Source: Pseudomonas sp. VD-NE ins
GTDB taxonomy: Bacteria; Pseudomonadota; Gammaproteobacteria; Pseudomonadales; Pseudomonadaceae
Assembly (NCBI RefSeq): GCF_031882575.1
Contig: NZ_CP134772.1
Span: forward strand, 2,127,001 to 2,191,000
Length of the DNA stretch: 64,000 nucleotides
Direction: 5' to 3'
A program made the translations under genes and the position numbers. Shown piece by piece: positions 51,480 to 64,000 of the stretch. Within the stretch, counting starts at the first letter, position 1. Each line of letters starts with the position of its first letter. Below the pieces are notes generated by a model. That model ran no database searches and was not told the origin of the DNA. It saw only the letters and a list, made by a program, of their open reading frames with translations.

Positions 51480-52448
51480 TTAGACCTGATAGCGCCCGCT
51501 GGTGCGATGCCACTCCACGCTGCCGGCCAGCCAGCACTTGAGGCCTGTCAGATAGCATTTGAGTAACGGCGAGGCCTGCGGCAGTACGCTGCTTTCTGCC
51601 GCCTCGTACAAATGCATGATTTCGTCGTGAATGGCGGCACTTTGCGCCATCGCTTGTTCAGGCGAGCATTGCTGTTCGCGGATCAACAGCAAGGGCAGGT
51701 TGAAATCACCGATCCCGGCTTGCTGCTCCTTCAGCGCCGAAAAAAGATCATTGGCAATGATCGTCGCGCTGGCAGCCAGTGTCGTGACGCGCCGCACATC
51801 GGGTGCGCTATACACATTCGCGGGCAGTTCATAGCCTCCGATGATGTCGATCAACGACAGGCACGGCAGGAAACTGTTGACCTGACGGTGGGCCAGATAT
51901 TCCCAAAGTGCTGGCGTGAGACCTTCGGTGCGCCAGGTCGCTTCGGCGCTCATGGTCACGAACATGGCGATGATTTCATGGCGTACGCGTGCGACCTGTG
52001 CTGGTGTGGCGAGGGCCTCCACCCGCGCCAGATAGCCGCGCAGAGCGACCATTACCGGATCGCTGCTCAATGCCTGCTCAAGACCGGGCCGGAACCGTTC
52101 GCTCAAGTACACCGGTTCCAGCGCCGCCAGCGCCACGGACAGGCGCGGGCCGACCATTTTCGGTTCAGATCCCGTTCTCTCATCATCACAGTAGTAATCA
52201 TCGACAGCGAAGAGGGCGGCAAAACATTGCGCCGCCAGTAGAAGACGATCGGGATCATCGGTGTCGGTATGGCACAGCATGGCGAAGCGGCCGAAGCCCA
52301 TGGCGCGCACTTTTGCATGGTGTCCTGGAAAAATTCCGACCTGCTCAATCCACGGCATGAGGCGATCATCCACTTCTGCCGCCAGAGCGAGGTCGACTCT
52401 AAAGGGCGCAAGTCCATACAGCGGCGGGACGGTCCAAGGCGATTTCAT
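51480..52448 (-). CDS. Class I terpene synthase (terpene cyclase family)
   Basis: From the ATG at 52448 (MKSPWTVPPLYGLAP), with AAGGA 7 bases upstream, a 322-residue bacterial terpene synthase. The aspartate-rich metal motif is DDYYCDDE (about residue 100), and the NSE triad is NDLFSALKE (about 220). A pyrophosphate-sensing Arg lies in the APDVRRVT segment, and the C-terminal SGRY supplies the RY pair. These bind three Mg2+ and the diphosphate of a prenyl substrate. No methyltransferase or prenyl synthase lies nearby, so a methylisoborneol-type product is not supported. The product is unknown. A 20-bp perfect palindrome of lux-box form lies 59-78 bases upstream. Confidence 0.88.
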   Translation of the reverse strand: MKSPWTVPPLYGLAPFRVDLALAAEVDDRLMPWIEQVGIFPGHHAKVRAMGFGRFAMLCHTDTDDPDRLLLAAQCFAALFAVDDYYCDDERTGSEPKMVGPRLSVALAALEPVYLSERFRPGLEQALSSDPVMVALRGYLARVEALATPAQVARVRHEIIAMFVTMSAEATWRTEGLTPALWEYLAHRQVNSFLPCLSLIDIIGGYELPANVYSAPDVRRVTTLAASATIIANDLFSALKEQQAGIGDFNLPLLLIREQQCSPEQAMAQSAAIHDEIMHLYEAAESSVLPQASPLLKCYLTGLKCWLAGSVEWHRTSGRYQV

Positions 52449-52506
52449 TGACGATTCCTTCGCGGTTGAGCGCAGGGTCATCAGAGCCCTATTGGCCAAA
52501 AAAGGC

Positions 52507-52526
52507 ACCTGTCATACCTGACAGGT
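52507..52526. promoter_or_regulatory. lux-box-like perfect palindrome
   Basis: ACCTGTCA-TACC-TGACAGGT, a 20-bp perfect dyad containing the CT-N12-AG core of LuxR-family operators. It lies in the divergent gap between the terpene synthase (59 bases away) and the MFS gene (219 bases away). The rest of the gap, 52527-52744, holds no clear gene. Confidence 0.6.
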
Positions 52527-52744
52527 CTGTGCGTTTTGCGACGGATGGTCAACGTCGATCCAGCATCCGACGGAGGTTTCCATCGGTCTGGTCAGTTGAC
52601 ACCGGCAGGCTCGCCGGGGCGGCTGAGTCATCTGTTTATCAAAAGGCCCTTGGACTTCACTCCTTCACATTCCACCAACAATTCCCCGCTTCCACGCCAT
52701 CTGACCCTATGGCAACTTGGCGGCCCTTGATGAGGCTGCAGTCC

Positions 52745-53917
52745 ATGGCAAACCCCTACCGCGAATTGTTCAACGCCCCCGGCGCACGAAACTTTGTGCT
52801 GGCCGGGATGATCGCGCGCATGCCGATCTCCATGACCGGCATCGGCGTGATCACCATGCTCTCGCAACTCAAGGGCGGCTACGCTTTGGCTGGTGGCGTG
52901 GCGGCGACGTTTGCCCTCGCCACGGCGTTTTGCGCGCCGCAGGTTTCAAGGCTGGTGGACCGCTTCGGTCAGGGGCGGATTCTGCCGATATCGGCGTTGA
53001 TCGGCGGCGGCGCATTGCTGATGTTGCTGCTGTGCACGCGGTTACAGGCGCCGGACTGGACGCTGTTCATCTTCGCCGCACTGGCCGGTTGCATGCCGAG
53101 CATGTCGGCGATGGTGCGCGCACGCTGGACCGAGATCTATCGTGGCCAGCCGCAATTACAGACCGCGTATGCGCTGGAATCGGTGCTTGATGAGGTCTGT
53201 TTTATTGTCGGTCCGCCGCTGTCGGTGGGGTTGTGTGTGGCAGTGTTCCCCGAGGCCGGGCCGTTGGCGGCTTTGCTGGCGCTGGCGATCGGCGTGACGG
53301 CGTTCGTCGCCCAGCGCAGCACCGAGCCGGCGGTGCATCCGCAGGAGTTGCATCATCAGGGGTCGATCATTGCATCGACGGACATTCAGCTACTGCTGGC
53401 GCTGATGATTGCCATGGGCATCATCGTCGGTGTGATTGATGTGGTCAGCGTCGCGTTTGCCCAGCAACAAGGGCAGCCGGCGGCGGCGAGCATCGTCTTG
53501 TCGGTTTACGCCATCGGCTCGTGCCTGGCCGGTATCGCCTTCGGCGCCATGCGTTCGAAACTGCCGTTGCCGCGATTGTTTTTGTACGGCGGCGTGGCGA
53601 CAGCGGTGACGACGTTGCCGCTGTTATTGGCGAGCAATATTTTCGGCTTGTCGGTGGCGGTATTCATCGCCGGGCTGTTCTTCGCGCCGACGCTGATTGT
53701 GGCGATGGCGTTGATCGAACGCATCGTGCCGCCGGCCAAACTGACGGAAGGCCTGACCTGGCTGGTGACCGGTTTGAGTATCGGCGTGGCGATGGGGGCT
53801 GCCGGTTCCGGCTGGCTGGTGGATGCCTTCGGCGCACGTAGCGGTTTCTGGCTGGCGATTGCGGCAGGGGCGGTGGTGCTGGGCTCGGCAATACAGAGTT
53901 ACCGCCATCTGAAATGA
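52745..53917 (+). CDS. Major facilitator superfamily transporter
   Basis: From the ATG at 52745 (MANPYRELFNAPGARNFVLAGMIARMPISM), with GAGG 9 bases before it, a 390-residue protein with about 12 membrane helices. Loop motifs include SRLVDRFGQGRILP between helices 2 and 3 and a central cytoplasmic loop after VAQRSTEPAVHP. Earlier in-frame starts (52730, 52709) are possible. Similar proteins are annotated as drug or sugar effluxers; the substrate is not evident. It diverges from the terpene synthase gene, so export of its product is one option. Confidence 0.88.
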   Translation: MANPYRELFNAPGARNFVLAGMIARMPISMTGIGVITMLSQLKGGYALAGGVAATFALATAFCAPQVSRLVDRFGQGRILPISALIGGGALLMLLLCTRLQAPDWTLFIFAALAGCMPSMSAMVRARWTEIYRGQPQLQTAYALESVLDEVCFIVGPPLSVGLCVAVFPEAGPLAALLALAIGVTAFVAQRSTEPAVHPQELHHQGSIIASTDIQLLLALMIAMGIIVGVIDVVSVAFAQQQGQPAAASIVLSVYAIGSCLAGIAFGAMRSKLPLPRLFLYGGVATAVTTLPLLLASNIFGLSVAVFIAGLFFAPTLIVAMALIERIVPPAKLTEGLTWLVTGLSIGVAMGAAGSGWLVDAFGARSGFWLAIAAGAVVLGSAIQSYRHLK

Positions 53918-54028: not shown

Positions 54029-55162
54029 TTACCAGCCTCGTCCCGAGTTGACCCAGAAATTCACTGACAGCGAAGTCGACACCGACTCCACCTGATGGAA
54101 CCAGCCCTCCGGCAGAAACAGCAAATCCCCAGCCTCCAGCGTTACGCGCAGGAAGGTCACGTCCCGAGCGGCGGGAAAGCGCTCGTAGTCCGGCGCATCG
54201 GGGTTGAAATCACAACCATCCAGGCCACCCTTCGGCGCTGTCGACCAGGTGCCCAGCGCTTCGCGGTGATGCGGGGCGGCGAGGGTGAATTTCTTCTGCC
54301 CCCAGACCTGCGCGAAGAGGTTGTCGGTGTCGTCGCGATGCAACGGCGTCAACGTGCCTTTCGGCCCGATCCAGATACGCGGCGGGATGAATAACGAGGC
54401 GTCGAAGTAGGCCGGGTATTTGATCTGTTGCATCAGCTGCGCTGGCAGGATGTTGTTGCCCATATACGCTGGCGGCTCGCCATCGGCGCCCTTGACCGCC
54501 GGTTGGTCCAGCGAGGCGATGAAGTCGGCCATCGAGGTGGAGCGAAAATCACGTTCGGTGGAGAAAGTTTTCTTCACGTAGTCGCCATGGCGGGTGATGC
54601 CTTGCAGTTCGGCGAAATGCACCAGCGATTCTTCACGGCTGAGCTTGAACAGTGGCCAGTCCTGCAGCGCATTGCTGATCACCACGGGAATGCCGTTGGG
54701 CAGATAGCGGCTTTTGAACTCGGTGACCGACAGTTCACTGCGCGCAAGGCGTTCGATGCTGCTTTGGGTCGGCAGGCTGGCGGTGAGTTTTTCACTGAAG
54801 CGCGGCGGGGTCGGGTAGCGCTTGTTCATGTCGACTTTTTCCGCCACGGCGCGGCCGTGTATCGCATGCTCGATGATCTGCGGCAGCATCGTTGCCAGGC
54901 CCATGTTGCCGCCGATTTTCAGGCGCCCGCTGGCGAACAGTTCCTCGACGTTGGCCATGCCGCCCATGATCCCGAGAAAGTCGCGCTCGGCGACTTCAAT
55001 GGTAACGTCCGGGCTGGCGTGGCGTCCGGGCACCGTGCGGCTGCTGGCCTTGACCTCGGACCAGTAGGCTTGCTGCGGACCGAACACGAATTGAAAAACG
55101 CCTTCGATGCCGACGGCGCCGGCGTTGGCGAACAGTTTGCCCAGGATGCTCTGCAGGTCCAC
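54029..55162 (-). CDS. SCP2-JmjC fusion, candidate Fe(II)/2-oxoglutarate oxygenase under PvdS-type control
   Basis: Starting from a GTG at 55162 with GAGGG 7 bases upstream, the protein has 377 residues (MDLQSILGKLFANAG...). Residues of about 1-115 resemble an SCP2 sterol-carrier/lipid-binding domain (SPDVTIEVAERDFLGIMGGMANVEELFASGRLKIGG). Residues of about 140-377 are a cupin_8/JmjC domain with LTPLHRDDTDN (His and Asp of the iron triad) and GWFHQVES (distal His). Such enzymes hydroxylate amino-acid or other substrates. Upstream on its strand is a perfect PvdS promoter, TAAAT-N16-CGT, so it should be made in iron starvation with the adjacent NRPS. Modification of a pyoverdine residue or precursor is the inference; a regulatory or iron-sparing role is an alternative. 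Confidence 0.85.
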   Translation of the reverse strand: MDLQSILGKLFANAGAVGIEGVFQFVFGPQQAYWSEVKASSRTVPGRHASPDVTIEVAERDFLGIMGGMANVEELFASGRLKIGGNMGLATMLPQIIEHAIHGRAVAEKVDMNKRYPTPPRFSEKLTASLPTQSSIERLARSELSVTEFKSRYLPNGIPVVISNALQDWPLFKLSREESLVHFAELQGITRHGDYVKKTFSTERDFRSTSMADFIASLDQPAVKGADGEPPAYMGNNILPAQLMQQIKYPAYFDASLFIPPRIWIGPKGTLTPLHRDDTDNLFAQVWGQKKFTLAAPHHREALGTWSTAPKGGLDGCDFNPDAPDYERFPAARDVTFLRVTLEAGDLLFLPEGWFHQVESVSTSLSVNFWVNSGRGW

Positions 55163-55200
55163 GGTGGTGCCCTCGTTATTGGTTTTGGCCTGAACAGTTA

Positions 55201-55224
55201 ACGAGCGCCTGTTGGGGGAATTTA
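55201..55224 (-). promoter_or_regulatory. PvdS (iron-starvation) promoter of the SCP2-JmjC gene
   Basis: On the minus strand TAAAT at 55224-55220, a 16-base spacer and CGT at 55203-55201: an exact match to the PvdS consensus TAAAT-N16/17-CGT, 39 bases before the GTG start. Confidence 0.8.
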
Positions 55225-55236
55225 CTGGTCGCTGAC

Positions 55237-55260
55237 TAATTTGCCCGGTGCGGGATCCGT
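55237..55260 (+). promoter_or_regulatory. PvdS-type promoter of the thioesterase gene
   Basis: TAATT (55237-55241), a 16-base spacer and CGT (55258-55260). It differs from the consensus by one base, is 36 bases before the GTG, and lies back-to-back with the minus-strand box at 55201-55224. Confidence 0.65.
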
Positions 55261-55295
55261 CTATCTCTACAGATGAATTTTTCGAGGAAAGCGTG

Positions 55296-56030
55296 GTGAC
55301 CAAGCTGACCCTGCTGTGCCTGCCGTACTCCGGCGCCAGTGCCATGGTCTACAGCCGCTGGCGGCCGAAGCTGCCGCAATGGCTGCACTTGCAACCGGTT
55401 GAGCTGCCGGGGCGTGGCGCACGTTTTGGTGAGCCGCTGCACACCGACATGCGTGGGCTGGCAATGCAGTTGGCCAAGGAATTGCGACCGACACTCAACC
55501 CCCCTTATGCGCTGTTCGGCCACAGTCTGGGCGCGTTGCTGGCCTGCGAAATGGCGCACGCCCTGCGTGCGCTGGGTTGTCCGGAGCCGGTGGCGATGTT
55601 CGCTTCCGGCACAGCGGCGCCGACCCTGCGTGCCGATTACGATCGCGGCTTCGCTGAGCCCAAGACTGACGCCGAGTTGATCGAGCAACTGCGCACGCTC
55701 AGTGGCACCAGCGAGGAAGTGCTGGCCAACGAAGAGCTGATGAGTCTGACCCTGCCGATCCTGCGCGCGGATTTTCAACTGTGCGGCAAGTTCGAGCCGC
55801 TGGCGCGACCGCTGCTCAACTGCCCGGTGCATGTGCTCGGCGGCAAGGCTGATCGCGCCACCACCGAGCAATTGATCGGCTGGAGCAAGGAAACCCGCGG
55901 CAGTTTCTCGGTGGACATGTTCGCCGGCGGGCACTTCTTTATCCATGAGCATGAAGCGAAGGTATTGAAGGTGATCAAGGATCAGCTCGACGTGCACCAT
56001 CGCCGCCATGCCATGGCTGCAATCGCCTGA
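55296..56030 (+). CDS. Type II thioesterase of the pyoverdine NRPS (PvdG/GrsT-like)
   Basis: A 244-residue editing thioesterase that clears mis-primed or stalled carrier domains. The GTG at 55296, 7 bases after AGGA, gives MTKLTLLCLPYSGASAMVY. The longer frame from 55248 would begin inside the promoter, so it is rejected. Motifs are CLPYSG (family start), LPGRGARF, the nucleophile ALFGHSLGALLACEMA (Ser near 85), the Asp in HVLGGKADRAT and the His in FAGGHFFIHEHE. It lies directly before the NRPS gene in the same direction, with its own PvdS-like promoter. Confidence 0.92.
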   Translation: MTKLTLLCLPYSGASAMVYSRWRPKLPQWLHLQPVELPGRGARFGEPLHTDMRGLAMQLAKELRPTLNPPYALFGHSLGALLACEMAHALRALGCPEPVAMFASGTAAPTLRADYDRGFAEPKTDAELIEQLRTLSGTSEEVLANEELMSLTLPILRADFQLCGKFEPLARPLLNCPVHVLGGKADRATTEQLIGWSKETRGSFSVDMFAGGHFFIHEHEAKVLKVIKDQLDVHHRRHAMAAIA

Positions 56031-56282: not shown

Positions 56283-59200
56283 ATGAATGCTGAAGACTCC
56301 TTGAAACTTGCTCGCCGGTTTATCGGGTTGCCCCTGGAAAAGCGCCAGATGTTCCTCGCGGCCCTGCAAAAGGAGGGCGTGGATTTTGCCCGGTTTCCGA
56401 TCCCGGCCGGGATCGAAGCCGAGGATCGCCAGGCGTTGTCCTACGCGCAGCGGCGCATGTGGTTTCTCTGGCAACTCGATCCGCAGAGCGGCGCCTATAA
56501 CCTGCCGGGCGCGGTGCGCCTGAGCGGTCGCCTCAACCTCGGCGCGCTGGAGCAAGCCTTCGCCAGCCTGGTCGAGCGCCATGAAACCCTGCGCACGGTG
56601 TTCCAGCGCCAGGCTGACGACAGTCTGTTGCAAGTGCCGGCCAGCGCGCCGTTGCTGATCAATCATGAAGATTTCAGCGCGCTGCCGGCCCTCGAGCGTG
56701 AGCAGGCCGTCGTCCGCGCCGCCGAGCTGCAATCGGTATTGCCGTTCGATCTGGCCGTCGGCCCGCTGCTGCGGGTGACTTTGCTCAAGCTCGCCGAGCA
56801 GGAACATGTCCTGCTGCTGACCCTGCACCACATCGTTTCCGATGGCTGGTCGATGAACGTGCTGATCGACGAGTTCATTCGTTGCTACGACGCTTTCGAT
56901 GCCGGCCAGCCACCACAGCTGAGCGCGTTGCCGATCCAGTACAGCGACTATGCGTTGTGGCAGCGCCGTTGGCTGGAGGCGGGCGAGCAGGCGCGGCAAC
57001 TCGATTACTGGCAAGCACAACTGGGCGACGAACACCCGGTGCTGGAGCTGCCGCTGGATCATGCCCGCCCGGCGATGCCGAGCTATCGCGGCACCCGTTA
57101 CGAGTTCGCCATTGATGAGCAACTGGCCGAACAGCTGCGCAATACCGCGCAGCAGCATCAGGTCACCCTGTTCATGTTGTTGCTTGGTGCTTTCAACGCG
57201 TTGCTGCATCGTTATACCGGTCAGACCGACATCCGTGTCGGCGTGCCGATTGCCAACCGCAACCGTGGCGAAATCGAAGGGCTGATCGGCTTCTTCGTCA
57301 ACACTCAGGTGTTGCGTACCCGACTGGACGGACAGACGCGGGTCGATGACCTGCTGCGCGCGATCAAGGAAACCGCGCTTGGCGCTCAGGCGCATCAGGA
57401 TCTGCCGTTCGAGCAACTGGTCGAAGCACTGAAACTGGAACGCAGCCTCAGTCACACGCCACTGTTCCAGGTGATGTACAACCACCAGCCGCAAGTGGCC
57501 GATATTGCCGTCCTCAGCACGGCGTCCGGTCTGGTGCTCGACAGCCTCGACTGGCAGAGCCGTACCACCCAGTTCGACCTGACGCTCGATACCTACGAGA
57601 AGGGCGGCAAGTTGCACGCCGCGCTGACGTACGCCAGCGACTTGTTCGAGCCCGCGACCATCGAGCGCATGGCGCGCCACTGGTTGCGCTTGCTCTCGGC
57701 CATGGTCGCCGATCCGGCGCAACGCGTCGGCGAATTGCCGTTGCTCGAAGCGGATGAACAACACACGCTGGTGCATGACTGGAACAACGCTCACGCGGTT
57801 TATCCGACCGAAACACCGATCCATCAACTGATCGAAGCGCAGGTCGCGCGCACGCCGAATGCGCCGGCGCTGCTGTTCGGCGAACAGACCCTGAGCTACG
57901 CCGAACTGGATGCCCGCGCCAACCGCCTGGCGCATCTGCTGCGTGAGCAAGGTGTGCGGGCCGACAGTCTGGTCGGTGTGTGCGCCCTGCGTTCGGTGGA
58001 AATGGTTGTCGCGCTGCTGGCGATTCTCAAGGCTGGCGGCGCTTATGTGCCGCTGGATCCGGAGTACCCGCAGGAACGTCTGGCCTACATGATCGAGGAC
58101 AGCGGCATCACCTTGCTGCTGACCCAGGATGCTTTGCGGGCATCGCTGCCGACTGACGGCGTGCAGGTCATCACGCTGGATCAAGCGGGCCTGCTCGACG
58201 GCTACAGCGACAGCCGCCCGGACGTCAGCGTCGATCCGCTGAACCTGGCCTATGTGATTTACACCTCGGGTTCTACCGGTAAACCGAAAGGCGCCGGCAA
58301 CAGCCACGCGGCGCTGGTCAACCGCTTGTGCTGGATGCAGGAAGCGTACGGCCTCGACGCCAGCGATTCGGTGCTGCAGAAAACCCCGTTCAGTTTCGAC
58401 GTGTCGGTCTGGGAATTCTTCTGGCCGCTGCTGACCGGCGCACGCCTGGTGGTTGCTGCGCCAGGTGCACATCGCGATCCGCTGCAACTGATCGACATCA
58501 TCAACCGCCACGGCATCAGCACACTGCACTTTGTGCCGTCGATGTTGCAGGCGTTCATCCACGAGGCGGGCGTTGAAAGCTGCGTGGGCCTCAAGCGCAT
58601 CGTCTGCAGCGGTGAAGCGCTGCCGCTGGACGCGCAATTGCAAGTCTTCGCCAAACTGCCGAACGCCGGCCTCTACAACCTCTACGGCCCGACCGAAGCG
58701 GCGATCGATGTGACCCACTGGACCTGCGTTGACGAAGGCGCCGACAGCGTGCCGATCGGCCGGCCGATCGCCAACCTGCGCACCCACGTCCTCGATGCCG
58801 AGCTGCTGCCGGTACCGAGCGGCGTGGCCGGCGAGCTGTACCTGGGTGGCGCCGGGCTGGCGCGCAGTTATCACCAGCGTCCGGCGCTGACCGCCGAGCG
58901 TTTTGTACCGTGCCCGTTCCATGATGGCGCGCGCCTGTACCGCACCGGTGACCGTGTGCGCCAGCGTGCCGACGGCGTGATCGAATACCTTGGTCGTCTC
59001 GACCATCAAGTGAAACTGCGCGGTCTGCGCATCGAGCTGGGCGAAATCGAAACCCGCCTGATGCAGCACCCGCTGGTGCGCGAAGCGGTGGTGCTGGTGC
59101 AGGGCGGCAAACACCTGGTGGCTTACCTTGTGCTGGAACAGGCTCAGGCGGACGAGCAGTGGCAGCAGGACGTCAAGGCGTGGCTGCTCGGCAGTCTGCC

Positions 59201-62200
59201 GGAATTCATGGTGCCGACCTACCTGATGACGCTGGCGAAACTGCCGGTCACCGCCAACGGCAAACTCGACCGTAAAGCCTTGCCGCAACCGGACGCCGCG
59301 CCACAACAAGCATTCGTTGCCCCGCAAGATGCGCTGCAAAAAGCCTTGGCGGCGATCTGGGAAGACGTGCTCGGCCTTGAGCGTGTCGGTCTCGAAGACA
59401 ACTTCTTCGAACTGGGCGGCGACTCGATCATCTCGATTCAAGTGGTCAGCCGTGCGCGGCAGGCCGGGATTCGTATCAGCCCGCGCGACCTGTTCCAGTA
59501 CCAGACCGTGCGCAGCCTCGCGCTGGTGGCGACGCTGGATAATCAGACCTTGGTAGATCAAGGACCGGTGACCGGCGCCGCCGTGCTCGGGCCGATCCAG
59601 CAGCATTTCTTCAGCCGCGCAATGCCGCTGCGTGAACACTGGAACCAGTCGTTGCTGCTGACCCCACGCGACACCTTGAACGCGCAGTGGCTGGATGCCG
59701 CGCTGACGCAGGTGATCAATCATCACGACGCCTTGCGCCTGCGCTTTGGCGAAAGCGCCGACGGCTGGCAGCAAAGCCACGGCCCGTTGGTTGACAGTGC
59801 TGAGCTGTGGCTGCGCGACGCCGAGACTGCTGAGCAATTGCAGGCGCTGTGCAACGAAGCCCAGCGCAGCCTTGATCTGCAGAACGGTCCGCTGCTGCGT
59901 GCAATGCTGGTGACCCTGGCCGATGGCTCTCAGCGCCTGGCGTTGATTATTCACCACTTGGCGGTGGACGGCGTTTCCTGGCGGGTGTTGCTGGAAGATC
60001 TTCAGCAGGCGTATGAGCAATTGGCGGCGGGCGGCGGCATTCAGTTGCCGGCCAAGACCAATGCCATGCAGAACTGGACCGCGCGCCTCGAAGGCGCCGC
60101 TTCACGCTTCGATGAACAACTGGGTTACTGGAAAGCCCAGCATCAGGGCGCGACGGACCTGCCGTGCGAACGTCCCGATGGCAGTCTGCAAAACCTGCAC
60201 GGCGAGAAAATCGAATGGCGCCTTGATGCCGAGCGCACCCGTCAGTTGCTGCAGCAGGCCCCGGCCGCGTATCGCACGCAGGTCAATGATCTGCTGCTCA
60301 CCGCACTGGCGCGCACCATCAGCCGCTGGACCCGGCAGCCGGGCACGCTGATCGAACTGGAAGGGCATGGTCGCGAAGACCTGTTCGATGACATCGACCT
60401 GACCCGCACCGTGGGCTGGTTCACCAGTTTGTTCGCGGTCAAGCTGACGGCCGCCGACGATCTCGACGGGTCGATCAAGTCGACCAAGGAGCAACTGCGC
60501 GCCGTGCCGGACAAAGGTCTGGGCTACGGCGTGCTGCGTTATCTGGCTGCGCCGTCGGTGCGCGCCGAATTGGCCGGGCTGACGCCGCCACGGATTACCT
60601 TCAACTACCTCGGCCAGTTCGATCGTCAGTTCGACGACGCCGCGCTGTTCGTGCCGTCCGCTGAAACCAGCGGCGTTGCGCAGGATCCTGCGGCGCCACT
60701 GGCCAACTGGTTGACCGTGGAAGGTCAGGTGTATGGCGGTGAACTGTCGATGAGCTGGGGTTTCAGCCGCGAAATGTTCGACAGCGCGACCGTGCAGCAT
60801 CTGGTCGATCAATACGCGCTGGAACTGCATGCGCTGATCGAGCATTGCTGCACGTTGCAAGCCGCGCAAGCGACGCCGTCGGACTTCCCGCTGGCCCGTG
60901 TGACGCAGGCACAACTGGATGCGTTGCCGGTCCCGGCAGGTTTGCTCGACGATGTTTATCCACTGTCGCCGATGCAGCAGGGTCTGCTGTTTCACACCCT
61001 CTACGAACAAGCGGCGGGCGAGTACATCAACCAGTTGCGCGTTGACGTACAAGGTCTCGATCCCGAGCGGTTCCGCGCTGCGTGGCAGGCCACCGTCGAT
61101 GCGCAGGACATTCTGCGCAGCGGTTTCGTCTGGCAGGGTGAGCTGGCGCAGCCGCTGCAGATCGTCCACAAGCAGGTGCAACTGCCATTCAGCACGCTGG
61201 ACTGGCGCGACCGCGATGATCAGCCAGCGGCGCTCGCGGCGTTGGCCGATGCCGAGCGTCAGCAAGGTTTCGATCTGAGCAGCGCACCATTGCTGCGACT
61301 GCTGCTGGTGCAAACCGGCGCCAAGCAATGGCACCTGATTTACACCCATCACCACATCCTCATGGACGGCTGGAGCAACTCGCAGTTGCTCGGCGAAGTC
61401 TTGCAGCGCTACAGCGGGCGCACGCCGGCGAATGGTGGCGGGCGTTATCGCGACTACATCGCGTGGCTGCAACGCCAGGATGGTCAACTGAGTCAGGCAT
61501 TCTGGAGCGGTCAATTGGCCGCGTTGCAAGAGCCGACGCGACTGGCGCGCGCAGCCACTGGCGGCGAGAACCTCAGCGGCCACGGCGATCACTACCTGAC
61601 CCTGGACGTGCAGCGCACTCAAGCACTGGAGGCCTTCGCCCGTCAGCAAAAAGTCACCGTCAACACCTTGGTGCAAGCGGCGTGGCTGCTGTTGCTGCAA
61701 CGCTATACCGGTCACGAAGCCGTGGCGTTCGGTGCGACCGTGGCCGGGCGGCCGGCGGATCTGCCGGGCATCGAGCAACAGGTCGGTCTGTTCATCAACA
61801 CCTTGCCGGTGATTGGCGCGCCGCGTCCGGATCAGAGCGTTGGCAGCTGGCTGCAAGCGGTACAGGCGCAAAACCTCAGCCTGCGCGACTTCGAACACAC
61901 GCCACTGGCAGATATCCAGCGTTGGGCCGGGCAGGGCGGTGAAGCGCTGTTCGACAACATTCTGGTGTTCGAAAACTACCCGATTGCCCAGGCGCTGAGT
62001 CAGGCCGGGCAAGGGCTGACATTCGGCGAGGTCGGCAACCTCGAGCAGACGCACTATGCGCTGAGCGTGGCCGTTACGCTCGGCCAACAACTGGCGTTGC
62101 ACTACAGCTTCGATCGCGGCCAGTTCGCCAGCGATGTCATCGCCGGCATCAGTGCGCACCTGCTGCAATTGCTTGAGCAGTTCGCCGTGTCGGCGGAGCG

Positions 62201-64000
62201 CAACCTCGGTGAAATCGCCTTGGCAGATGCTCAAGAGCAGGCGCGCCAGCAAGCCGAAAACCAGCCGCAGCCGTACCCGCTGGACATCGGCGTGCATCAG
62301 CGCATTGCTGCATTGGCCGCGCAGAATCCGCAGCGCACGGCGGTGATTTTCAATGATCAGCATTTCAGCTACGGCGAAATCGACCAGCGCGCCAACCAAC
62401 TGGCACACGCGCTGATCGCCCGTGGCGTCGGTGCGGAAACCCGTGTCGGCGTAGCGCTGCCGCGCAGTGAGTCGGTGATCGTCGCGCTGCTGGCCGTGCT
62501 CAAGGCGGGCGGCGCTTATGTGCCGCTGGACACCAGCTACCCACGCGAACGTCTGGCCTATCTGATCGAAGATTCCGGGCTGGCGCTGCTGATCAGCGAC
62601 TCGTCGGTGTCGGCGCAATTGCCGGTCGATGAGTCGGTGCCGCTGCTGGAACTGGATCGTCTCGAATTGCGCGAGCTGCCGATCAAGGCACCGCACGTGC
62701 AACTCGATCCGCACAACCTCGCCTACGTGATTTATACCTCTGGTTCCACCGGCAACCCGAAAGGCGTCAGCGTCGCCCACGGCCCGCTGGCCATGCACTG
62801 TCAGGCCATTGGTCAGCGCTATGAGATGCGTGACAGCGACTGCGAATTCCACTTCATGTCGTTCGCCTTCGACGGTGCCCACGAGCGCTGGCTGACCAGC
62901 CTGACCCACGGCGCGTCGCTGCTGATTCGCGACGACACGTTGTGGACGCCGGAGCAGACCTACAACGCGATGATCGAACACGGCGTGACCGTGGTCGCAT
63001 TTCCGCCGGTTTACCTGCAACAACTGGCCGAACACGCCGAACGCGTTGGCAATCCGCCGAAAGTACGCATCTATTGCTTCGGTGGTGATGCGGTGCCGAA
63101 CGCGAGTTTCGAGCGGGTTAAACGCGCGCTCGATCCGGACTACATCATCAACGGTTACGGCCCGACCGAAACCGTGGTCACGCCGCTGATCTGGAAGGCC
63201 GGGCGCGAGGTGCCATGCGGCGCTGCGTACGCGCCAATCGGCAGCCGCATTGGTGACCGTAGCGCTTATGTGCTCGACGCCGATCTGAACCTGCTGCCGC
63301 AAGGCATGGCCGGCGAGTTGTACCTTGGTGGTACAGGGCTGGCGCGGGGTTATCTGAACCGTCCGGGGCTGACCGCCGAGCGCTTTGTGGCTGATCCGTT
63401 CAGCACCAGCGGCGGTTTGCTTTATCGCACTGGCGACCTGGTGCGTCAGCGTGTCGACGGCACGTTCGATTATCTGGACCGCATCGACAATCAGGTGAAA
63501 ATTCGCGGTTTCCGTATCGAGTTGGGCGAAGTCGAAGCGGCGCTGCAAGCCCTCGACGGCGTGCGTGAAGCGGTGGTCGTCGCGCAGGAAGGCAGCGCCG
63601 GCAGTGGCAAGCGTCTGGTGGCCTACGTGGTCGGCGATTCCAGCCGTACCGACTTCACCGACGATCTGCGCGCGCAACTCAAGACGACGTTGCCAGCGCA
63701 TATGGTGCCGGCGTACGTCTTGCGTCTGGAGCGCATGCCGCTGACACCGAACGGCAAACTCGATCGCAAGAACCTGCCGAAACCGGACGTCAGCCAACTG
63801 CAACACACTTACGTTGCACCGCAAACGGCGCTGGAGCAGCAACTGGCTGCGATCTGGCAGGACGTGCTCAAGCTTGAGCAAGTGGGCGTCAGCGATAACT
63901 TCTTCGAGCTGGGCGGCGACTCGATCATTTCGATCCAGGTGGTCAGCCGCGCGCGGCAGGCCGGGATTCGCTTCACACCGAAAGACCTGTTCCAGCACCA
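56283..64000 (+). CDS. pvdI: Pyoverdine-type nonribosomal peptide synthetase, PvdI-like (partial, first two modules)
   Basis: The ATG at 56283 (MNAEDSLKLARRFIGL) opens a frame with no stop before the right edge: 2572 codons. Domain order is C-A-T-E-C-A-T. C1 has HHIVSDG (182-188). A1 has YTSGSTGKPKG from residue 660 and reads specificity code DVWHVSLID plus Lys, the classical serine code. T1 has the phosphopantetheine Ser1048 in GGDSI. E1 has HHLAVDG (1224-1230). C2 has HHILMDG (1690-1696). A2 has YTSGSTGNPKG from residue 2151 and code DGEACGGVT plus Lys, whose acidic Glu suggests a basic residue such as lysine. T2 has Ser2547 in GGDSI. So D-Ser followed by a probable Lys is predicted, like the start of several P. 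fluorescens pyoverdines. The choice of pvdI over pvdJ or pvdD rests on the N-terminus and context. The 56031-56282 gap holds a REP and the promoter. Confidence 0.93.
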   Translation, partial: MNAEDSLKLARRFIGLPLEKRQMFLAALQKEGVDFARFPIPAGIEAEDRQALSYAQRRMWFLWQLDPQSGAYNLPGAVRLSGRLNLGALEQAFASLVERHETLRTVFQRQADDSLLQVPASAPLLINHEDFSALPALEREQAVVRAAELQSVLPFDLAVGPLLRVTLLKLAEQEHVLLLTLHHIVSDGWSMNVLIDEFIRCYDAFDAGQPPQLSALPIQYSDYALWQRRWLEAGEQARQLDYWQAQLGDEHPVLELPLDHARPAMPSYRGTRYEFAIDEQLAEQLRNTAQQHQVTLFMLLLGAFNALLHRYTGQTDIRVGVPIANRNRGEIEGLIGFFVNTQVLRTRLDGQTRVDDLLRAIKETALGAQAHQDLPFEQLVEALKLERSLSHTPLFQVMYNHQPQVADIAVLSTASGLVLDSLDWQSRTTQFDLTLDTYEKGGKLHAALTYASDLFEPATIERMARHWLRLLSAMVADPAQRVGELPLLEADEQHTLVHDWNNAHAVYPTETPIHQLIEAQVARTPNAPALLFGEQTLSYAELDARANRLAHLLREQGVRADSLVGVCALRSVEMVVALLAILKAGGAYVPLDPEYPQERLAYMIEDSGITLLLTQDALRASLPTDGVQVITLDQAGLLDGYSDSRPDVSVDPLNLAYVIYTSGSTGKPKGAGNSHAALVNRLCWMQEAYGLDASDSVLQKTPFSFDVSVWEFFWPLLTGARLVVAAPGAHRDPLQLIDIINRHGISTLHFVPSMLQAFIHEAGVESCVGLKRIVCSGEALPLDAQLQVFAKLPNAGLYNLYGPTEAAIDVTHWTCVDEGADSVPIGRPIANLRTHVLDAELLPVPSGVAGELYLGGAGLARSYHQRPALTAERFVPCPFHDGARLYRTGDRVRQRADGVIEYLGRLDHQVKLRGLRIELGEIETRLMQHPLVREAVVLVQGGKHLVAYLVLEQAQADEQWQQDVKAWLLGSLPEFMVPTYLMTLAKLPVTANGKLDRKALPQPDAAPQQAFVAPQDALQKALAAIWEDVLGLERVGLEDNFFELGGDSIISIQVVSRARQAGIRISPRDLFQYQTVRSLALVATLDNQTLVDQGPVTGAAVLGPIQQHFFSRAMPLREHWNQSLLLTPRDTLNAQWLDAALTQVINHHDALRLRFGESADGWQQSHGPLVDSAELWLRDAETAEQLQALCNEAQRSLDLQNGPLLRAMLVTLADGSQRLALIIHHLAVDGVSWRVLLEDLQQAYEQLAAGGGIQLPAKTNAMQNWTARLEGAASRFDEQLGYWKAQHQGATDLPCERPDGSLQNLHGEKIEWRLDAERTRQLLQQAPAAYRTQVNDLLLTALARTISRWTRQPGTLIELEGHGREDLFDDIDLTRTVGWFTSLFAVKLTAADDLDGSIKSTKEQLRAVPDKGLGYGVLRYLAAPSVRAELAGLTPPRITFNYLGQFDRQFDDAALFVPSAETSGVAQDPAAPLANWLTVEGQVYGGELSMSWGFSREMFDSATVQHLVDQYALELHALIEHCCTLQAAQATPSDFPLARVTQAQLDALPVPAGLLDDVYPLSPMQQGLLFHTLYEQAAGEYINQLRVDVQGLDPERFRAAWQATVDAQDILRSGFVWQGELAQPLQIVHKQVQLPFSTLDWRDRDDQPAALAALADAERQQGFDLSSAPLLRLLLVQTGAKQWHLIYTHHHILMDGWSNSQLLGEVLQRYSGRTPANGGGRYRDYIAWLQRQDGQLSQAFWSGQLAALQEPTRLARAATGGENLSGHGDHYLTLDVQRTQALEAFARQQKVTVNTLVQAAWLLLLQRYTGHEAVAFGATVAGRPADLPGIEQQVGLFINTLPVIGAPRPDQSVGSWLQAVQAQNLSLRDFEHTPLADIQRWAGQGGEALFDNILVFENYPIAQALSQAGQGLTFGEVGNLEQTHYALSVAVTLGQQLALHYSFDRGQFASDVIAGISAHLLQLLEQFAVSAERNLGEIALADAQEQARQQAENQPQPYPLDIGVHQRIAALAAQNPQRTAVIFNDQHFSYGEIDQRANQLAHALIARGVGAETRVGVALPRSESVIVALLAVLKAGGAYVPLDTSYPRERLAYLIEDSGLALLISDSSVSAQLPVDESVPLLELDRLELRELPIKAPHVQLDPHNLAYVIYTSGSTGNPKGVSVAHGPLAMHCQAIGQRYEMRDSDCEFHFMSFAFDGAHERWLTSLTHGASLLIRDDTLWTPEQTYNAMIEHGVTVVAFPPVYLQQLAEHAERVGNPPKVRIYCFGGDAVPNASFERVKRALDPDYIINGYGPTETVVTPLIWKAGREVPCGAAYAPIGSRIGDRSAYVLDADLNLLPQGMAGELYLGGTGLARGYLNRPGLTAERFVADPFSTSGGLLYRTGDLVRQRVDGTFDYLDRIDNQVKIRGFRIELGEVEAALQALDGVREAVVVAQEGSAGSGKRLVAYVVGDSSRTDFTDDLRAQLKTTLPAHMVPAYVLRLERMPLTPNGKLDRKNLPKPDVSQLQHTYVAPQTALEQQLAAIWQDVLKLEQVGVSDNFFELGGDSIISIQVVSRARQAGIRFTPKDLFQH

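Follow-up and report, generated by a model that had tools for sequence, protein, structure and literature searches.

The question raised by this locus is what an oxygenase joined to a lipid-carrier domain does beside the pyoverdine genes of Pseudomonas sp. VD-NE ins. The gene, called here SCP2-JmjC after its two domains, lies in a stretch of 64,000 nucleotides (contig NZ_CP134772.1, positions 2,127,001 to 2,191,000, hereafter the window). With moderate confidence, we read its product as an Fe(II)/2-oxoglutarate (2OG) hydroxylase made under iron starvation, which would hydroxylate the N-terminal glutamate (Glu1) of the acylated pyoverdine precursor and lead, via PvdN, to malamide or malate pyoverdines. 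This reading is built on the domains, the intact active-site residues, a conserved PvdS-type box, the confinement of the gene to pyoverdine genomes in our sample and its presence irrespective of Asp modules. The gene and its domains are the following.

54029 to 55162, minus strand: SCP2-JmjC (Cupin_8) gene, 377 residues, stop codon at 54029-54031 and GTG start at 55162
54872 to 55108, minus strand: SCP2 lipid-carrier domain (residues 19-97; Pfam PF02036, 39.9 bits against a cut-off of 21.3, E 5.8e-10)
54053 to 54721, minus strand: Cupin_8/JmjC oxygenase domain (residues 148-370; Cupin_8 E 4.8e-37; iron site H275, D277 and H356)

The first-pass annotation had described this gene as an SCP2 domain followed by a JmjC/cupin_8 domain with an intact HxD...H triad, which is confirmed by Pfam and by conservation in all 53 aligned relatives. 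Some relatives begin with an ATG exactly where this GTG stands, which supports the assigned start. Concerning the oxygenase half, JmjC_2 is also matched above the Pfam cut-off (E 2.2e-6) and JmjC PF02373 remains below it (21.2 against 24 bits); the structure matches listed, which span residues 127-377, assign this half the JmjC double-stranded beta-helix fold. The triad H275, D277 and H356 is invariant in 53/53 relatives together with T272, N281 and K290, and in an alignment to human JMJD5 these positions fall on identical residues, except for T272, which falls on Ser. N281, K290 and T272, which align with Asn, Lys and Ser of JMJD5, are putative 2OG-binding positions. The SCP2 half, which matches a nonspecific lipid-transfer protein among the PDB sequences (E 3.2e-8), is also retained in 53/53 relatives. 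The Pfam matches of the protein do not include the TauD domain, which reaches 172.7 bits in a SyrP-like protein used for comparison, and no export signal was seen by eye at the N-terminus. From its residues and fold, the protein is predicted to be an Fe(II)/2OG hydroxylase.

The region upstream of the gene contains two boxes, arranged back to back, and the start of a divergent gene.

55201 to 55224, minus strand: PvdS-type box TAAAT-N16-CGT of the SCP2-JmjC gene, the only exact copy in the window
55237 to 55260, plus strand: near-consensus box TAATT-N16-CGT facing the thioesterase, a pattern match in the window
55296 to 56030, plus strand: stand-alone type II thioesterase (Pfam Thioesterase, 154.6 bits; start inferred at 55293 or 55296 in a frame open from 55248)

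Both boxes had been pointed out in the first-pass annotation, and both are present. A single exact box in the window is not significant by itself, with 0.55 copies expected in 64 kb from shuffled sequence and at least one copy in 45 of 100 shuffles. A survey of named genomes was more informative: of 112 stretches that matched a pattern, 91 code for a relative, and from these the best 80 were taken (the 80 relatives or loci referred to below). The exact box with a spacing of 16 lies within 200 bp upstream of the gene in 73 of these 80, and each of the spacings 12-15 and 17-21 gives only 0-2 cases. As background, the exact N16 box was found in 40 of 13428 random 200-bp windows of the same loci and in 19 of 16000 shuffled upstream regions. 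Hence, the box is considered genuine because of its conservation in the relatives and not because of the window statistics. Among the seven relatives without the exact box, TAANT-N16-CGT is found in four (L031, L033, L067 and L080), in two (L074 and L075) the gene comes after pvdN and pvdP in the same orientation, and no box was found upstream in L058. By its promoter box the gene would belong to the PvdS regulon, and its expression is apparently driven from this box under iron starvation. Regarding the box of the thioesterase, the pattern TAANT-N16-CGT occurs twice in the window against 2.04 expected; on the thioesterase strand, TAAWT-N16-CGT is present in 54/80 relatives and exact TAAAT in only 2/80.

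Is this, then, a pyoverdine gene? On the other side of the thioesterase the window contains a nonribosomal peptide synthetase (NRPS), which we take to resemble PvdI.

56283 to 64000, plus strand, continuing to the window equivalent of 68600: PvdI-type NRPS with Ser, hydroxyornithine (OHOrn)-type and Ala modules

Homologues placed mostly away from pyoverdine loci were among the findings that the first-pass annotation said would refute its idea; the opposite was found, most of them lying in such loci. Core pvd genes were sought in the flanking DNA of the 80 loci, up to 10 kb on each side, and at least one was found in 73. A divergent upstream NRPS like that of the window is present in 64/80 loci and a thioesterase in 54/80. 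In L011 and L040, which are short contigs, there is only a thioesterase, and in L072 only an alpha/beta hydrolase; no pvd gene was seen in the flanks of L076-L079, one flank of L079 being only 1.2 kb long, but the exact box is kept in all four. In L061, L063, L065, L066, L068 and L069 the order is pvdP, pvdM, pvdN, alpha/beta hydrolase and SCP2-JmjC, in L074 pvdM, pvdN and SCP2-JmjC stand in a row with 73 bp between the pvdN and SCP2-JmjC matches, and in the distant relatives L091 and L092 the gene follows pvdP on the same strand.

The distribution was analyzed in 398 Pseudomonadaceae genomes, where full-length orthologues were defined by full length and E <1e-150 and PvdP was sought at E 1e-60. 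Any match at E 0.001 occurs in 215 genomes, many of these matches being weak and single-domain, and full-length orthologues occur in 38. PvdP is present in 141/398 genomes, including all 38 that carry the gene; the chance of this coincidence is 1.9e-19 when relatedness is ignored. From its genomic distribution and surroundings, SCP2-JmjC is a genuine pyoverdine biosynthesis gene, and its presence in 38 of 141 pvdP-positive genomes fits a trait that pyoverdine producers show only sometimes. The same results bear on the idea of a protein hydroxylase, or of an iron- or oxygen-responsive regulator, with nothing but PvdS control in common with the pyoverdine genes. Among solved structures, the nearest relatives (JMJD5, JMJD7, TYW5 and FIH) act on protein or RNA, but a gene confined to pvdP-positive genomes in the sample, placed mostly inside pvd loci and never without its SCP2 domain in the 53 aligned relatives, makes such a function very improbable. 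Iron-responsive regulation, one of the roles suggested in the first-pass annotation, found no support.

If the protein acts on the siderophore, a second question is which residue it modifies. Hydroxylases of Asn, Asp and His are known among the FIH-type JmjC enzymes, so that a SyrP-like beta-hydroxylation of Asp or His in the peptide had to be weighed. The codes of the adenylation domains were read with an alignment-based reader in 21 gene-positive clusters (40-66 kb read, some probably incomplete). The meanings of the codes are presumed, and the OHOrn-type is our own reading. For Asp, Thr and Lys, the codes match published ones (PMC7139650 and PMC12195549). In our strain the clustered NRPS genes read Ser, OHOrn-type and Ala, followed in a second NRPS by Gly, Thr, Ala and OHOrn-type with a terminal thioesterase-like motif; no Asp or His code is among them. 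An Asp module is present in 16/21 clusters, which would suit the Asp/His proposal, but five, including our own, have no Asp code (G000, G344, G365, G137 and G253), and a His code appears in 0/21. SyrP/TauD relatives track the Asp modules instead: they occur in 11 of the 16 Asp-containing clusters and in 0 of the other 5 (Fisher p 0.012); none was found in our own whole genome G000 at E 1e-15. Hydroxyaspartate (OHAsp) in the peptide thus has its own enzyme, and SCP2-JmjC occurs with very different peptides without being tied to an Asp module. Judged from these codes and gene distributions, a beta-hydroxy-Asp/His role for SCP2-JmjC is unlikely, and we give it little credence.

Acylated Glu1, which is common to pyoverdines with different peptides, is consequently the favoured substrate. 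In pyoverdines the Glu side chain is converted to succinamide by PvdN or to ketoglutarate by PtaA, and the acyl chain of the precursor is removed later (PMC6206403). Malamide and malate are found in some species, PAO1 and A506 being without them, and the responsible enzyme was still given as unknown in a review of 2018 (PMC6206403) and again in 2022 (PMC9569983). We propose that in the cytoplasm the SCP2 domain would bind the fatty-acyl chain that the precursor, either NRPS-bound or released as acyl-ferribactin, carries on its N-terminal L-Glu, and that the JmjC domain would hydroxylate this Glu1, most likely at C-beta. After export and acyl-chain removal, PvdN would produce malamide from hydroxy-Glu, in place of succinamide, and hydrolysis would give malate; hydroxylation at C-beta would leave the hydroxyl beside the amide. 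An action before export, on the still-acylated precursor, is inferred because Fe/2OG enzymes use cytosolic 2OG and no export signal was seen. A grip of SCP2 on the acyl chain next to Glu1 would also explain why the domain is retained in all the aligned relatives. The substrate, the carbon position, the timing, the cellular place and the role of SCP2 are what we infer here. The first-pass annotation had guessed at siderophore tailoring or the handling of an acylated precursor, and this part of it stood: the gene is a pyoverdine gene, and an SCP2 domain for an acylated intermediate is the favoured version, now narrowed to acylated Glu1. On the present sequence comparisons, SCP2-JmjC is the best candidate known to us for the missing malamide hydroxylase.

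Published masses allow this to be compared with individual strains. P. fulva NBRC 16637 (L071) carries the SCP2-JmjC gene once in its genome together with PvdN, and no SyrP/TauD relative was found in that genome at E 1e-15. The peptide Asp-Ser-Ser-AcOHOrn-Lys-Lys-cOHOrn (with acetylated and cyclic OHOrn) was solved by tandem mass spectrometry (MS/MS) in NBRC 16639, and masses of 1204.56 and 1220.55 are published for NBRC 16637 (PMC12195549). The masses calculated for this peptide, which has no OHAsp, are 1204.56 with succinamide and 1220.55 with malamide, the same as the published pair. P. putida NBRC 14671 (L070) also has the gene and PvdN, with no SyrP/TauD relative found. Its masses are 1342.58, 1358.58, 1359.58 and 1374.59 (PMC12195549), the last three of which fit, by mass alone, succinamide, succinate and a +16 form (+16.01 from 1358.58). 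The malamide role thus has two strain-level matches in its favour, one close and one weaker. The masses of NBRC 12996 (1122.43) and NBRC 109349 (1251.52), strains outside the gene survey, agree with malamide and malate. NBRC 100650 is probably KT2440, which presumably is without the SCP2-JmjC gene; the masses given for NBRC 100650 are 1056.40, 1073.42, 1074.41 and 1092.42, with no malamide or malate mass among them (PMC12195549). The malamide maker GB-1 has SyrP and OHAsp (PMC4019867), and P. capeferrum WCS358 (L063) has both the SCP2-JmjC gene and a SyrP/TauD relative. In SBW25 the side chains are succinate and ketoglutarate (PMC2235872), and PMC9925543, on pyoverdines with succinate, succinamide or Glu, offers no test of the gene. 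For our own strain, if residue 2 is AcOHOrn and the last residue cOHOrn, the calculated [M+H]+ is 1046.45 with succinamide and 1062.45 with malamide. Forms heavier by 16 would be left unexplained if the enzyme oxidised the acyl tail, or some other residue of the acylated precursor, for editing or membrane handling, with no mark left on the mature pyoverdine. The SCP2 domain does point to a lipid-linked substrate, and later loss of the chain (PMC6206403) would suit such a step, but all pyoverdine precursors are acylated and the gene is found in only 38/141 pvdP-positive genomes; we consider this explanation rather improbable.

Several points weigh against hydroxylation of Glu1 on the way to malamide. 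The 2018 review favours succinamide as the hydroxylated species and states that hydroxy-Glu was never found (PMC6206403). The peptide of NBRC 16637 was only inferred from masses, MS/MS having been done on NBRC 16639, and the text of the same paper labels the 1204.57 and 1205.54 forms opposite to our calculation (PMC12195549). NBRC 14671 has no assigned peptide and shows the further mass of 1342.58. Moreover, +16 pairs also occur in other strains outside the gene survey, several of them P. putida: NBRC 14164 (1336.52/1352.52), 14796, 15366, 3778 and 110474. Differences between Asp and OHAsp could yield such pairs as well, and no NBRC 14164 record is among the 80 loci.

PvdN adds to these objections. 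At E 1e-40 it is absent from seven of the 38 gene-positive genomes (G250, G301, G328, G375, G334, G056 and G043), so the two do not strictly occur together (31/38), and it is not commoner with the gene than among gene-negative producers (31/38 vs 95/103, p 0.12). In G250, G301, G328, G375 and G334, pvdM directly adjoins pvdO, without an intervening pvdN (L134-L138). These five loci are syringae/viridiflava-like pyoverdine clusters, a label taken from titles such as those of L053-L056. G056 is Azotobacter-like, since its protein shares 97% identity with P0122, which is named from A. vinelandii, and azotobactin is not known to keep such a side chain; in G056 (L091) SCP2-JmjC follows pvdP, pvdM and two pvdO-like matches are also present, and pvdN is absent. 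In these genomes hydroxy-Glu forms or a role in azotobactin are therefore possible. The malamide/malate makers GB-1, MnB1 and CFML 90-51 also produce azotobactin (PMC4019867), and a form resembling azotobactin is seen in P. fulva (PMC12195549). Two explanations draw on these facts. Hydroxy-Glu could be a common root, with SCP2 holding the precursor and JmjC acting on Glu1 in the cytoplasm, from which malamide and malate would arise where PvdN is present, and hydroxy-Glu forms, or loss of the side chain to azotobactin-type chromophores, where it is absent; this is a tentative proposal, less probable than the malamide role. More doubtful still is that the main fate of hydroxylated Glu1 is hydroxy-Glu pyoverdine or side-chain loss, malamide being only a branch product with PvdN. 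The PvdN-less genomes and the azotobactin producers speak for it, but PvdN is present in 31 of the 38 genomes, and no ring-closure chemistry is known to us.

Compared with known systems, SCP2-JmjC would share its Glu1 target with PvdN and PtaA (PMC6206403), which are periplasmic pyridoxal phosphate enzymes, whereas SCP2-JmjC is an oxygenase expected to work in the cytoplasm before export. Like the SyrP-type Asp hydroxylases of pyoverdine and syringomycin clusters, it is an Fe/2OG oxygenase encoded beside a siderophore NRPS and possibly acts on NRPS intermediates, but those enzymes belong to the TauD family and track Asp modules, which SCP2-JmjC does not. Its N-terminal domain resembles SCP2/nonspecific lipid-transfer proteins by Pfam and PDB sequence, and differs from them in being fused to an oxygenase, with lipid binding predicted. 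With the small JmjC hydroxylases of the Cupin_8 type (JMJD5, JMJD7, TYW5 and FIH) it shares about 27% identity, the fold and the iron site; unlike them, it has an SCP2 fusion, is encoded in a bacterial siderophore locus and is expected to use a lipopeptide instead of protein or RNA. If so, no earlier JmjC enzyme known to us acts on a lipopeptide. No link between this gene and pyoverdine was recognised among the literature matches listed, which are mostly open-access and include no preprints. The proposed reading supplies one gene and one mechanism for the malamide/malate pyoverdines: if true, SCP2-JmjC is their missing side-chain hydroxylase, the lipid tail of the precursor gains a role in tailoring before export, and the gene becomes a marker by which siderophore side chains could be predicted from genomes.

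Concerning the surroundings of the gene, a major facilitator superfamily (MFS) transporter gene (52529-53917, plus strand) adjoins SCP2-JmjC and is the same neighbour in many related loci; that it exports a pyoverdine form is a guess. In L050, L054, L058 and L059 the thioesterase is on the opposite side of SCP2-JmjC, beside the MFS gene, so the local order has been rearranged. A terpene cyclase gene (51480-52508, minus strand; NCBIfam 'family 2 encapsulin nanocompartment cargo', 407.8 bits against a cut-off of 400) is found in only part of the related loci. An esterase-like gene of the Abhydrolase_3 family recurs in pyoverdine loci, as in L083 (3744-4700, in our own genome, behind the second NRPS) and L090 (7460-8419, minus strand), and stands head to head with SCP2-JmjC in putida-type loci.

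Long open frames at G295 (2358 codons), G327 (759), G345 (674) and G244 (689), considered as fusion proteins, were rejected, since they overlap the adjacent thioesterase or NRPS genes in antisense. A scan of viral contigs with the Azotobacter-named homologue gave no relative. Finally, two damaged copies were found: in G332 (L089, 6964-7187) only the two ends of the gene survive, beside thioesterase and transporter genes that are intact, and in P0126, named from a P. putida, the frame is lost from the HxD region on. These copies could possibly serve as natural mutants for a comparison of pyoverdines.
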